Below are positions 8,354-23,191 of a stretch of 26,540 nt of DNA, piece by piece (positions within the stretch are counted from its first letter, which is position 1; each line of letters begins with the position of its first letter). The notes beneath the pieces were generated by a model, which did not search any database, was not told where the DNA came from, and worked only from the letters and a program-made list of their open reading frames with translations. Position numbers and translations under genes: made by a program. Origin of the DNA: a virus; IMG/VR virus record IMGVR_UViG_3300025655_000241, positions 1-26,540 of that record, one strand, 5' to 3'.

Positions 8354-8503
8354 ATGGATAGAGAACACATGCTGGACGAATTGGAGGCCGTCATCCTCGA
8401 CACGCACGACCTTGACGTGACCGCCCGCGCCGCAAGATCGGTTGTGGCTTACTTGTTGACCGCCTCAACCACGCCAGACGACCAAGCCACAAACGCCGCG
8501 TGA
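8354..8503 (+). CDS. small hypothetical protein (49 aa), last gene of the + arm
   Basis: A strong Shine-Dalgarno sequence AAGGAG (8341-8346), 7 nt before ATG 8354, decides the start. An upstream in-frame ATG at 8303 would add a Pro-rich stretch and has a weaker site. The product is soluble and acidic (MLDELEAVILDTHDLD) with one helical, moderately hydrophobic stretch (ARSVVAYLL). Function is unknown. Its last 55 bp overlap the 3' end of the o-spanin gene on the other strand, so the two arms meet tail to tail without spacer. Confidence 0.5.
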   Translation: MDREHMLDELEAVILDTHDLDVTARAARSVVAYLLTASTTPDDQATNAA

Positions 8504-8724
8504 CGATCCGCACAGACGCGCAGATTGATCCTGTCGCGCCGCCACGCCGCTGCCTGCTGCCCTTGTGTCGTCAGACCCGCAACGGGCGCAGGCAAGGCGC
8601 ACAAAGAGGCAATCGCCGTGTCAGGCGGTGCAAGTCGGATCTTGTCAGCGGATGGCGTCGATTCCCCGCAGGAGATCAGGAGCCAGACCGGGAAGATCGC
8701 GATTGTCAGACGTGTCAGCATCAT
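8449..8724 (-). CDS. o-spanin (Rz1-like outer-membrane lipoprotein)
   Basis: The product is 91 aa. The N-terminus is a lipoprotein signal peptide (LTRLTIAIFPVWLL) ending in the lipobox L-I-S-C-G, with the lipidated Cys near residue 19. The mature part is Pro/Ala-rich and ends without a membrane segment. The gene begins inside the i-spanin gene in another frame (overlap 8645-8724), the Rz/Rz1 arrangement typical of phages of Gram-negative hosts. GGGAA upstream supports ATG 8724 (ATG 8721 is equally possible). The protein should bridge to the i-spanin across the periplasm and fuse the membranes at the end of lysis. It is somewhat longer than lambda Rz1. Confidence 0.8.
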   Translation of the reverse strand: MMLTRLTIAIFPVWLLISCGESTPSADKIRLAPPDTAIASLCALPAPVAGLTTQGQQAAAWRRDRINLRVCADRHAAFVAWSSGVVEAVNK

Positions 8725-8968
8725 CGGCAAGTTCCCGTTCCAGATCATCAAGGCTTTGCTCAGAGGCGGCCAGCATTGCGGCCAGATCCCGCGCAGCTTT
8801 GTTGCGCTCGGCCAGCCTGTCGTTCAGATCCCGCGTGGCCTCGGCGTTTTTCGCCTCAGACGCCGCATAGCCCGCGTTATAGCCTGTCACCCGCAGATAT
8901 GTGCCACCGCCTGCCAGCGCGCCGCAAAGCGCGAGGATGACCCACGGGTTACCGATCAGTCGGAACAT
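8645..8968 (-). CDS. i-spanin (Rz-like inner-membrane spanin)
   Basis: The product is 107 aa. One N-terminal membrane segment (NPWVILALCGALAGGGTYL, about 7-25) is followed by a long charged, coiled-coil-prone helix (about 35-85) in the periplasm, the standard i-spanin layout. It follows the holin gene, overlapping it by 20 bp, and its 3' part contains the start of the o-spanin. Sequence identity to named spanins cannot be judged by eye. The assignment rests on topology, order and the nested lipoprotein. Confidence 0.82.
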   Translation of the reverse strand: MFRLIGNPWVILALCGALAGGGTYLRVTGYNAGYAASEAKNAEATRDLNDRLAERNKAARDLAAMLAASEQSLDDLERELADDADTSDNRDLPGLAPDLLRGIDAIR

Positions 8969-17322: not shown

Positions 17323-19136
17323 TATGCGTTGACCGATAAGCCGCGAATAACGCTGCCCCCTGCTATTTCGTCGCCAAATTGCTCCATCAGTCTGCGCACG
17401 TCTGCCCCCGAGAATCTGGCGTTATCGCCGCCTGTTAATGTGACGTTGTAGTATGTGCCCGCCTGCGCTGGTGCAGCCGCTGTAGCACCTACTGAGCCGC
17501 CACCGCCGCCACCGCCGCCACCGCCACCGCCACCGCCGTTTGGCGATGCGCTCTTGATCTGGCTTAAAAGCATCCCTGTTTTGGCAAGCGATGCCGCCGT
17601 GAAAGCTGCCGCAACTGGTGGCCCGCCCAACTCCATGCCCTTGTCCCAGGCAGTTAATGCTGCGCTATACCCGTCGATTATACCCTGAGCGAGTGCAGCC
17701 GTTTTGCCGATGGCAAACAGCTTTTTGTTCTCGGACTGCATCAGGCTGGATAGATCGCCCAGAGCGCCGCTGACCGCCTGCAATTTTAGTTGCAAAGATG
17801 CGCGCTCAATCGCGGCCAATTTATCGGCGTGTTCTTTCTGAATGCGCTCTTCGATGTCGTTGTAATCCGCGCCCAGATCGACCTTGGACTGGCGGAACTC
17901 TTCCAGCTTTGCCAACTGCTCGGCGCGCGAAGCGTCCAGCGCCTCGGTCTCTGTCATCAGCCCTTCTTGCAGGCGGGCCAGATCCTCGGCCAATTCCTCG
18001 GCTGTTGGGATGGTGCCAGATGCCCCGCCGCCGCCATTTTTGGTTTTTTCTTTTTTGGGATTGCGGACTATTTTGGGGGGGACTTTTGTGGCAAGAGCAG
18101 GGCCGCCGTCATCAAGGATGACGTTGCCGTTCTCGTCTAAAAACCGTGTGCCTGTTGTGTTGTCAAAAGACATTTCAGGCGGGAACAAGTCGCGCGCCGC
18201 GTCCTCTTCTGATGGCTGTGCGCTTTCTGTCCCCGGCACATCCAGCCCAGCCGCAATGCCTGCCAGCCGAATGAACTCAGTGACTGCCGTGACCGCTGGC
18301 GTGATTGCCGAAACCCATTCGCCAATTTTGGTGATGAATGAATCGATCGCCGGGATGATATTGTTAATGATGAAATCAGCCGCCGCGACGATTTCGTCAG
18401 AGTATTCCAGAATAGCCGCAGATACTTTGGTCTGAAGTGTCCGCGACAATTCGGATAGCCGCTTATCGAGTTCTACGCCTTTTGCGATTAGACCCGCATC
18501 AAGAACGCGCCCCGCAGCCTGCGCCTCATCTCCGAGCCGCTTCATTTCCGTTCCGTTGTTCCGCAACAGAGGCAGCAGCGCCGTCGCGTCAGAGGCAAGC
18601 GCCTCCATGTAGAAGGTCATTTGCTGTTGACCTACGCCCGCCTTTTCAAGTGAGGAAACGTAAAGCTGCAAAGCCTCTGGGCCGGATAGTCGCGCGAATT
18701 GCTCTGCCGTCACCCCAACGGCTGGCGCGATGTTTTCGAAGAAATCAGCAAGCGGGCCAGCGCCTGTTGACATGAAGTCGCCGAATTTGTCGTTTACGTC
18801 CTTGAAGATGTCGGCCATTTTCTCTTGTGAGAAATTGACAGACCGCCCAGCCTCGGCAAGCCGCTGGAATTCCGTTGTTCCGACCCCGGCCAGATCGGAA
18901 AGCACCTTAATTTCCTTGACAGCAGATCCAGCAGCCTTGCCCGCGGCCAAAACAGCCCCCGCAACTGCGACACCAGCCGCCGCCAGACGAACAGTGAACT
19001 TTCCAACCGTTGCGCCAATCTTTGCCATGTCGCGGGATGTTTTTTTGGTCTCATCGCGGGCGTCGGCCATTCCCTTTTTAAATTCGGCGGTGTCTGCGCC
19101 GATGCGAACGATGATTGATGGTAATGCCATTTTCAT
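17322..19136 (-). CDS. tape measure protein
   Basis: The product is 604 aa, helical and Ala/Lys/Glu-rich, starting with a beta-strand and a K-K-G-M-A-D-A-R segment common in tape measures. It has hydrophobic stretches near 50-80 (AAAGVAVAGAVLAAGKAAG) and near the middle (DFIINNIIPAIDSFI), and a coiled-coil region about 385-460. A 14-glycine tract (534-547) lies before the C-terminal domain. At about 0.15 nm per residue it predicts a tail of roughly 90 nm. It follows the tail chaperone pair, the normal order, and its ATG overlaps the stop of the frameshifted chaperone (ATGA at 19133-19136). Confidence 0.92.
   Translation of the reverse strand: MKMALPSIIVRIGADTAEFKKGMADARDETKKTSRDMAKIGATVGKFTVRLAAAGVAVAGAVLAAGKAAGSAVKEIKVLSDLAGVGTTEFQRLAEAGRSVNFSQEKMADIFKDVNDKFGDFMSTGAGPLADFFENIAPAVGVTAEQFARLSGPEALQLYVSSLEKAGVGQQQMTFYMEALASDATALLPLLRNNGTEMKRLGDEAQAAGRVLDAGLIAKGVELDKRLSELSRTLQTKVSAAILEYSDEIVAAADFIINNIIPAIDSFITKIGEWVSAITPAVTAVTEFIRLAGIAAGLDVPGTESAQPSEEDAARDLFPPEMSFDNTTGTRFLDENGNVILDDGGPALATKVPPKIVRNPKKEKTKNGGGGASGTIPTAEELAEDLARLQEGLMTETEALDASRAEQLAKLEEFRQSKVDLGADYNDIEERIQKEHADKLAAIERASLQLKLQAVSGALGDLSSLMQSENKKLFAIGKTAALAQGIIDGYSAALTAWDKGMELGGPPVAAAFTAASLAKTGMLLSQIKSASPNGGGGGGGGGGGGGGSVGATAAAPAQAGTYYNVTLTGGDNARFSGADVRRLMEQFGDEIAGGSVIRGLSVNA
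17496..17537 (-). repeat. glycine-codon microsatellite in the tape measure gene
   Basis: Fourteen consecutive Gly codons alternate GGC and GGT in the coding strand. In-frame slippage here would change the linker length without breaking the gene. Confidence 0.9.
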
Positions 19137-19734
19137 GCAGCCTTTTTCTCGTCAGCCTTGGCCTGTCTGACCATCTGCCGCACGTCTGCCATATCCTTGC
19201 CACGGCTTCGCTCGCGCTCTGGCATTTTGGCGTCTATCACCCACCACACCTGACCCGGTGGCATGGCCCAGAATTCAGTGGGTGAAACCCAATCATTCGC
19301 AACAAAAATGTGGTGAAGCGTTTTTACTAAGCCGCCGCTTTCTTCTTTTTTGCAGGCTTCAAAGGCTCTGCATCGCTGTCGCCGCTTGAGAGCATGTGCC
19401 CGATTGGCGGGGCAATGATTGAGATCAGCCCGACGATGGCGCTTTGAATTAGGATTGCCGTCTCGCCTTTTGCGTCGGCCATCCCTGACATGATGGTAAG
19501 ATAAACCTCATCGTCAGTCACGCTTGCACCAGCATAGCGCAACGCGGCCCCGTAAGCCCGTGCAAGGGTCGAATAGCTAGGACCAGACCCACGGCATAGA
19601 ACCTCAAGCGCCTGACGCCCAGACGCGCCCGCGAACACGTCCTCAATGGTCGCGATCAGCATCAGTTGTTTATTTGCCGGGATAACGTATTCATTGCCAT
19701 CCCAGCCCAAAGTCACATCTTCGAAACCCTTCAT
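19133..19734 (-). CDS. tail assembly chaperone, predicted -1 frameshift fusion (about 200 aa)
   Basis: This entry joins the first 130 residues of the upstream chaperone to a 70-residue segment in the -1 frame, as in the lambda gpG/gpGT strategy. The heptamer A_AAA_AAG lies at 19351-19345 (minus sense), 15 nt before the zero-frame stop. The -1 frame has no ATG, GTG or TTG between the slip site and an internal Met, yet it encodes a coherent sequence (A-N-D-W-V-S-P-T-E-F-W-A-M-P-P-G-Q-V-W-W). This recalls the small second chaperone of gene transfer agents. The segment ends in E-K-K-A-A with a TGA overlapping the tape measure ATG. The fusion would couple tube and tape measure during tail assembly. 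Confidence 0.7.
19327..19734 (-). CDS. tail assembly chaperone (gpG-like; GTA gp10-like)
   Basis: The product is 135 aa. It has a beta-rich start (F-E-D-V-T-L-G-W-D-G-N-E-Y-V-I-P) and a helical core (L-A-R-A-Y-G-A-A-L-R-Y-A-G), matching the Phage_TAC_11/GTA-type chaperone family. It ends in a lysine tail (K-P-A-K-K-K-K-A-A-A) that contains the slippery site. AAGGGGC is well placed before the ATG. Located between tail tube and tape measure, as expected. The short form would act alone and in excess over the fused form. Confidence 0.85.
   Translation of the reverse strand: MKGFEDVTLGWDGNEYVIPANKQLMLIATIEDVFAGASGRQALEVLCRGSGPSYSTLARAYGAALRYAGASVTDDEVYLTIMSGMADAKGETAILIQSAIVGLISIIAPPIGHMLSSGDSDAEPLKPAKKKKAAA
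19345..19351 (-). other. -1 ribosomal frameshift slippery heptamer A_AAA_AAG
   Basis: In the zero frame the codons are GCA AAA AAG, so X_XXY_YYZ is satisfied. This is the same heptamer as in E. coli dnaX. A weak 5-bp stem (AAGCG/CGCTT) can form downstream. A stronger stimulator is not visible by eye. Confidence 0.7.
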
Positions 19735-19743
19735 GATCGCCCC

Positions 19744-20142
19744 TTATGCTGCTGTATAGGTCCACGTGCCGTTAGATGTGAACGATCCGGAGAAAGTCTG
19801 TGCGTCCTCGTATGCGCCCGTCTCGGAATATCCGGACAAGACAAAGCTACCGCTGATTTCGTCCCCGTCTGGGAATTCGAATGTGATATCCGTCAAGAAG
19901 CTGTCCGTTGCAGTTGTGGACATGGCGATATCGCGCAGCACGTTGTCCTCTTCGTAGCCTTCAATCGAGAGTTCCAAAGAGCGCCCCGTCAGGATGCCCG
20001 CAAGGTGCGTGACGAACCCTGAATCGCCTTGATCCTGCACGTCGATTGGTGAGCCGTTGACAGTGACGGAAACAGTCCGACCGCCCGCGATTGTCACCGC
20101 ATTCTTTTTGATAAGGCACAAGCGGCCTGTGAGTTTCGCCAT
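19744..20142 (-). CDS. major tail tube protein
   Basis: The product is 132 aa, in the size range of short tail tube proteins. It is beta-rich, with D-S-F-L-T-D-I-T-F-E-F-P-D-G-D followed by a G-S-F-V-L-S-G-Y-S-E-T-G segment and a C-terminal G-S-F-T-S-N-G-T-W-T-Y-T-A-A typical of TP901-1/GTA-type tubes. AAAGGG lies 9 nt before the ATG. Position between the tail terminator and the chaperone gene supports the call. Confidence 0.85.
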   Translation of the reverse strand: MAKLTGRLCLIKKNAVTIAGGRTVSVTVNGSPIDVQDQGDSGFVTHLAGILTGRSLELSIEGYEEDNVLRDIAMSTTATDSFLTDITFEFPDGDEISGSFVLSGYSETGAYEDAQTFSGSFTSNGTWTYTAA

Positions 20143-22287: not shown

Positions 22288-22961
22288 TAGATGCGCGCCA
22301 CCATGTACGCGCTAAGAAGCGTCTTTGCGCTGGTGGCCTCTGCCGCCTCGTTGCAATCGCCGCGATTGGTATAGAGCCACGCCGCCATGCGCTTGACCGC
22401 CGCCCGCAGTGCTGCCGGGGCGTCTGTGGCTGCATCGCCGTACCCAGCGATATAGTCGATCTGGATGGCATTGCTCGCGCGCAGAGCAACAGGCCATGAC
22501 GCGCCGCGCTGTAGCGTGATGCGACCCGGCTTGCGGTATGTATCAACGTCGAATGTGCTGGCGATATTGACTGCCGTGCTGTTGCTGTCCTCGTCATAGA
22601 CGGTCACGGTATCGACCGTCTGCAATGGGAAGCGGGGCAGATCCACGTCAGCCCATCCAGCCGCGCCATAGAGTTCAGAGATCGACCCTTGGCGCACGCC
22701 ATCCCACCACGGCTCTGCATGGCTGGGCCAGCGATCTAGCGCCAGCTTCCACGATTGCGTGATGATTGCCAGCCCGGTCATTTCCTCGATCCACTCGCGC
22801 GCCTCTGCGATGAAGCCATTGGCCTCTGCGTCGGGCAAGCCCGTGGCGGTCTCATTGAGCAGCGTCCGCAATTCGTCTGCGGTGACTGGCTCAACAGCCG
22901 GGGCAGATGTTTGGACATGGCCGCGATATTGATAGAGCGACATGGGCGAGCGTAGGGCCAT
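22287..22961 (-). CDS. gp6-like head-tail connector protein
   Basis: The product is 224 aa. The pattern P-V-T-A-D-E-L-R-T-L-L, then D-A-E-A-N-G-F-I-A-E-A-R-E-W-I-E-E-M-T-G-L-A-I-I-T-Q-S-W, is typical of the phiE125 gp8/HK97 gp6-like family. These proteins form the ring below the portal. The later D-Y-I-A-G-Y-G-D and P-A-A-L-R-A-A-V segments also fit. The start overlaps the previous stop (ATGA). Confidence 0.88.
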   Translation of the reverse strand: MALRSPMSLYQYRGHVQTSAPAVEPVTADELRTLLNETATGLPDAEANGFIAEAREWIEEMTGLAIITQSWKLALDRWPSHAEPWWDGVRQGSISELYGAAGWADVDLPRFPLQTVDTVTVYDEDSNSTAVNIASTFDVDTYRKPGRITLQRGASWPVALRASNAIQIDYIAGYGDAATDAPAALRAAVKRMAAWLYTNRGDCNEAAEATSAKTLLSAYMVARI

Positions 22962-23191
22962 CAGGTTTTAGCCTTTCCCCGTGGGCGCCCGCGCTTTTTT
23001 GGCGGAGCCTTGGTTTCCAGATCAGGCACAGAGCCGATAGTGTCGCGCGGGTCATATGCCTGCGCTGCGCCCGCATCGATTGCCCATTGCGCCACCCGGC
23101 CATCGACTGCCGTGCCAAGCGGGAATGTGCGGACAGTGTGCCCATCCGGCGCGCACGTGAAGCCATCTGCGCGGGTAATTTTAGCCTGCAT
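22961..23191 (-). CDS. small protein (76 aa) with AT-hook-like C-terminus
   Basis: The N-terminal part (about 1-60) carries a short beta-rich module (T-C-A-P-D-G-H-T-V-R-T-F-P-L-G) with no known family. The last 15 residues are basic and contain K-K-R-G-R-P-R-G-K, matching the G-R-P core of AT-hook DNA-binding motifs. Located between the decoration-like and connector genes, it is coupled to the connector by ATGA. Possible roles include contact with packaged DNA. It could also be a structural tail with a chance basic end. Confidence 0.6.
   Translation of the reverse strand: MQAKITRADGFTCAPDGHTVRTFPLGTAVDGRVAQWAIDAGAAQAYDPRDTIGSVPDLETKAPPKKRGRPRGKAKT

Follow-up and report, generated by a model that had tools for sequence, protein, structure and literature searches.

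The window analysed here, a 26,540-nucleotide virus contig of IMG/VR, encodes a siphophage tail assembly chaperone that is very likely produced as two proteins, G and a G-T fusion, through programmed -1 ribosomal frameshifting (rough probability, 0.93). We favor this reading because of the position of the gene, an in-frame slippery heptamer, an open -1 frame that lacks a start codon, the conservation of the junction among relatives, and selection acting on T in the -1 frame only. The initial annotation had proposed such a frameshift, and both heptamer conservation and selection on T support it. The junction is an ordinary, well-supported case of a known and widespread phage mechanism, and it allows both products, G and G-T, to be annotated correctly, whereas T would escape a gene caller.

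The window contains a late module (Table 1) with a head protease, major head protein, neck genes, tail terminator, major tail protein, G, tape measure, and tail-tip genes. Pfam and PHROGs assignments place G and T between the major tail protein and the tape measure, all on the same strand. The glycine run in the tape measure protein is encoded by mixed GGC/GGT codons, and a separate pair of overlapping genes resembles Rz/Rz1 spanins, the second having a weak match, under the cut-off, to an Rz1-like family (LysC).

Table 1 Features of the window discussed in the text
Feature	Position	Strand	Basis or remark
Window			Virus contig of IMG/VR
Late module	right half of window	-	ORFs, Pfam, PHROGs
Major tail (tube) protein	19744..20142	-	Pfam PF06199, E = 1e-7; PHROG 1407; directly upstream of G
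Gene G, tail assembly chaperone, zero-frame product	19327..19734	-	ORF; 135 codons (135 aa) + TAG
Unchanged stretch upstream of heptamer	19355..19368		GAGCCTTTGAAGCC
Slippery heptamer A_AAA_AAG, G frame	19345..19351	-	Sequence
Heptamer-to-TAG spacing	19330..19344	-	15 nt
G stop codon TAG	19327..19329	-	
T extension, -1 frame	19133..19345	-	Open frame, 70 codons + TGA; EFWxMxPGQ[VL]WW core
T stop codon TGA	19133..19135	-	Overlaps tape measure ATG (19134..19136)
Tail tape measure protein, 604 aa	17322..19136	-	PHROG 2854, E = 1.4e-79
Run of 14 glycines in tape measure protein	17496..17537	-	
Second in-frame A_AAA_AAG	22994..23000	-	Near end of small gene 22961..23191
Spanin-like overlapping genes	8449..8751; 8645..8968	-	

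On the minus strand, G ends in GCA AAA AAG AAG AAA GCG GCG GCT TAG, so that the heptamer is read as GCA AAA AAG in the G frame. Its C-terminal tail is rich in lysine and alanine, and residues 119 to 135 are disordered in the AlphaFold2 model. Past the slip site the -1 frame reads EESGGLVKTLHHIFVANDWVSPTEFWAMPPGQVWWVIDAKMPERERSRGKDMADVRQMVRQAKADEKKAA. Between the last -1-frame stop, which precedes the heptamer, and codon 28, this frame has no ATG, GTG, or TTG; its first start codon is the ATG of FWAMPPG at codon 28, within the conserved core. The initial annotation gave the coordinates, the heptamer, its spacing of 15 nt from the stop, the length of 70 codons, and the tape measure overlap exactly; we add the strand (minus). 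It was also right that the -1 frame has no usable initiation codon near its beginning.

In the proposed mechanism, the majority of ribosomes would translate G through to its TAG. In a minority, slippage of both lysyl-tRNAs from AAA AAG onto AAA AAA would set the ribosome back by one base, and translation would carry on in the -1 frame to yield a minor product in which G is fused to the 70-residue T domain. By analogy with lambda G-GT, the frameshift precedent from which the roles of G and T are drawn (PMC5009743), G would coat the tape measure protein, T would bring in subunits of the tail tube, and the two products would be needed in a fixed G:GT ratio.

Taken as a single sequence, the heptamer proves little about a functional slip site, because an in-frame heptamer arises by chance in the lysine-rich tail of G with P = 0.43 under a synonymous-codon null and AAAAAAG is overrepresented in the window (10 occurrences versus 3.7 expected). 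Two observations nevertheless carry it beyond chance. Of the in-frame X_XXY_YYZ heptamers (Y = A or T) in the minus-strand late genes that we examined, eight in all, the one in G alone gives access to an extended -1 frame (70 codons), and the other seven lead to frames of 1 to 20 codons. The second observation is conservation in relatives, which we collected via the tape measure, T, and G in bacterial genomes, together with named phages; the resulting set holds 35 nonredundant junctions, an automatic junction call in L026 having been dropped as it has no recognizable T. An in-frame heptamer lies inside the G/T overlap in 32 of these 35 junctions, compared with 5.8 expected under synonymous reshuffling (P about 5e-28, with relatedness not corrected). 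We note that the other in-frame A_AAA_AAG listed in Table 1 is probably functionless, since the -1 frame there stops after 8 codons.

The phage is known only from metagenomic contigs, but one relative, in a Pseudogemmobacter humi strain (L094), is carried as a prophage. The exact A_AAA_AAG recurs in L001, L014, and L016, and close phage relatives with the same layout carry A_AAA_AAG, A_AAA_AAA, or G_GGA_AAG. More distant relatives, again with the same layout, carry G_GGA_AAR (G_GGA_AAA), G_GGA_AAC, A_AAA_AAC, or C_CCA_AAG. A canonical heptamer is missing from three of the 35 (L051, L008, and Pan4/L093), so that lack of the site, which the initial annotation had named as evidence against frameshifting if seen in close relatives, is confined to these, while the alignment it had proposed as a check shows the heptamer and the -1 frame to be conserved. 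As judged from these junctions, frameshifting is the usual state in the phage group of the window and in the D3-type phages compared. In Pan4 the sole candidate slip site is the noncanonical G_GAA_AAG. Both Pan4 and the Oceanospirillum phage vB_OliS_GJ44 (L012) have a G annotated as similar to that of gene transfer agents (GTAs), in Pan4 as a "GTA-like tail tube protein," and a frameshifted T that is unannotated.

T could instead be a separate gene, translated by re-initiation either at the ATG within it (codon 28) or at some nonstandard codon, for example, the ATT of codon 13. Several relatives do have an ATG or GTG 8 to 26 nt beyond the G stop, and in many GTAs an ATG that overlaps the G stop starts T. 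Homologues with a T start, the other finding that had been named as adverse, thus exist, but where an ATG stands 8 to 20 nt past the G stop (L018, L024, L109, and L031) the heptamer is kept in all, and a separate T gene would leave no reason for its retention. In the window no ATG, GTG, or TTG precedes codon 28, and a start at that codon would fall inside the most conserved motif and remove the first part of the domain. No T start with at least 50 codons left is present in the window or in L014, L019, L020, L022, L036, L046, and L009, and frameshifting is therefore the simplest route of expression. We consider a separate T gene very improbable.

An equally improbable alternative places the slippage in transcription, on the run of A residues, rather than on the ribosome. 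Longer A runs with several overlapping A heptamers are found in L018, L019, L095, and L109, but the run in the window is A6, short for polymerase slippage, and many relatives use G_GGA_AAR or G_GGA_AAC, which contain no long homopolymer. A sequencing error or gene decay as the cause of the split, which nothing favors but the frame change itself, is refuted by the relatives: the junction recurs in the independent contigs L001, L014, and L016, its layout recurs in many others, and T is under purifying selection.

The substitution patterns of T show purifying selection at the protein level in the -1 frame only. Between the window and L014, T in this frame differs by 5 synonymous changes and 1 nonsynonymous change (dN/dS, 0.049), and the comparison with L016 gives a dN/dS of 0.154 in the -1 frame versus 1.1 to 2.1 in the other two; overall, values outside the -1 frame are 0.48 to 2.1 or there is no synonymous change. 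The FW, Q, and WW core is invariant in the T alignment, which bears out the earlier description of the -1 frame as a coherent sequence with an FWAMPPGQVWW core. AlphaFold2 models T as all-helical with moderate confidence (pLDDT, 79.8) and G as a beta hairpin plus helices (pLDDT, 82.6). A PDB fold search with the G model gave no significant match, and its matches in a viral structure library are phage proteins, mostly unnamed. T has no match in Pfam or PHROGs, and against PHROGs G has only a weak partial match to a family of unknown function (phrog_7343; E = 0.011). With tblastn against named phages, G found none and T found three weak cyanophage matches, which led to Pan4; a G profile that included distant members left no scannable stretch.

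The last 60 nt of G are identical between the window and L014 despite a dS of 0.28 over G. L016 and the window also share, letter for letter, the stretch that immediately precedes the heptamer, GAGCCTTTGAAGCC, despite a dS of about 1.4; this second stretch may be an upstream element or may reflect chance. Downstream RNA structure at the window heptamer is not significant (z between -0.56 and +1.17), and no Shine-Dalgarno-like element occurs in the 20 nt upstream of it; we therefore guess that frameshift efficiency in the window is low, in the percent range. Across the related set, downstream structure has a mean z of -0.99 ± 0.22, versus -0.01 to -0.69 in four control stretches, a signal too weak to warrant the claim of a stimulator, and an Rfam search returned no match. 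The initial annotation had called the site dnaX-type, which holds for the heptamer (Escherichia coli dnaX likewise uses A_AAA_AAG) and not for the stimulators: dnaX shifts with 50% efficiency to a shorter product, aided by Shine-Dalgarno and hairpin elements (PMC3711429), neither of which was found in the window.

The closest parallels in organization are lambda G/GT and the HK97/D3 chaperones, which share with the window the gene position, a short G running to its stop, an X_XXY_YYZ site close to that stop at which the -1 slip takes place, and a T extension that finishes at the tape measure gene. They differ in using G_GGA_AAG rather than A_AAA_AAG, and their proteins cannot be aligned to those of the window by simple search; D3 (L010), which we compared directly, has G_GGA_AAG and a T in the -1 frame, and an HK97-like chaperone cluster shifts at 6 to 7% in E. 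coli (PMC3711429). Frameshifts in alphaproteobacterial phages have already been reported, including those of Rhodobacter capsulatus (PMC8601537, PMC4882933) and of Caulobacter (PMC3556154). By the description in the latter paper, phiCbK gp93/gp94 resembles the window in that it comes from an alphaproteobacterial phage and is a pre-tape-measure chaperone whose slip site is rich in A (AAAAAAC; Colossus has GGGAAAC), although its heptamer ends in C and the phage is of another type. GJ44 shares A_AAA_AAG and a T in the -1 frame; its G stop immediately follows the heptamer, its G is annotated as "gene transfer agent family protein" and is 26% identical to that of the window, and it carries no frameshift annotation.

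The initial annotation had further suggested that this junction is a GTA-like intermediate. Neither G nor T of the window matches PF11836 or PF09550 directly, and a direct comparison of G with GTA G gives a probability of only 5.8%. Profile alignment connects G with the group of L116, L023, L046, L115, and GJ44 (99.4% probability), in which three of five members match PF11836 (GTA gp10; best, 1.6e-5). For T, the alignment with the profile of GTA T scores 76% (E = 2e-5), one of the aligned T sequences matches PF09550 at 2.4e-4, and in G012 a window-type G stands beside a T above the PF09550 cut-off, joined by A_AAA_AAG. A remote relationship to GTA chaperones, through such intermediates, is thus credible from profile comparisons. 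RcGTA g10/g10.5 (PF11836, PF09550), as probable remote homologues, have the same gene order. In the RcGTA-type layout, a tape measure of ~220 aa precedes genes for the Rcc01695-type distal tail, hub, NlpC, and megatron. The window departs from this layout: its tape measure has 604 aa, compared with about 200 to 245 aa in the GTA clusters examined, and in the PHROGs search its next genes match PHROG 11633 and 11439 instead.

The GTA literature names two chaperone genes (PMC11409702), and the initial annotation had taken this as general. It applies to the Rhodobacteraceae, where 30 of 31 loci (L143 was not resolved) provide T with a start codon of its own, which in 20 loci overlaps the G stop precisely as ATGA or GTGA, and where, unlike in the window, no in-frame A/T-type heptamer occurs. 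It fails in three other alphaproteobacterial groups (with loci such as L156, L148, L160, L150, L212-L217, and L218-L248): 39 of their 65 PF09550 loci lack a T start and all 39 have an in-frame C_CCU_UUN, 25 have a start without the heptamer, and 1 (L230) has both. In the loci named, the junction lies about 19 to 46 nt before the G stop. CCC and TTT are fixed in the C_CCU_UUN sites, although in the same loci CCC averages only 25% of the codons for proline and TTT only 35% of those for phenylalanine. We base the GTA identity of the loci on NCBIfam matches in two of them, L182 (RcGTA tape measure, under the cut-off, and Rcc01695-type distal tail, hub, NlpC, and megatron) and L180 (tape measure and distal tail), and on homologues of RcGTA g9, g11, and g12 in 85 to 88 of the 96 loci.

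A quick, midpoint-rooted tree of g9/g11/g12 needs three changes between the two arrangements, since the start form appears at three distinct positions on it; most simply, an ancestral frameshift would have been lost three times. It is likely, on this comparative evidence, that RcGTA-type GTAs ancestrally frameshift at C_CCU_UUN and that at least three lineages, including Rhodobacteraceae/RcGTA, swapped to a stop-overlapping start. Because many GTAs frameshift, probably ancestrally, the idea of the window as an intermediate falls; frameshifting is moreover usual in its phage group, and the window is probably no more than a remote relative of GTA chaperones.

The C_CCU_UUN slip sites of GTAs, which lie outside the window, are the newest result; we found no report of frameshifting in GTA chaperones in the literature searched, the coverage of which was incomplete, so priority is not certain. 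The GTA comparison matters more than the window case; GTA producers have short tails of fixed length. If the reading is true, the lineages that swapped would have exchanged a G/G-T fusion chaperone for a pair of independent proteins. The nearly mutually exclusive states "slip site, no start" and "start, no slip site" amount to a natural experiment: they bear on whether a G-T fusion is required for tails to assemble, or merely both parts in some ratio. In two other alphaproteobacterial PF09550 loci (L165 and L166), C_CCU_UUA or C_CCU_UUG is followed immediately by UGA, so that the slip site shares its bases with an AUGA or GUGA start; from their sequence, these are possible true intermediates between the two arrangements.
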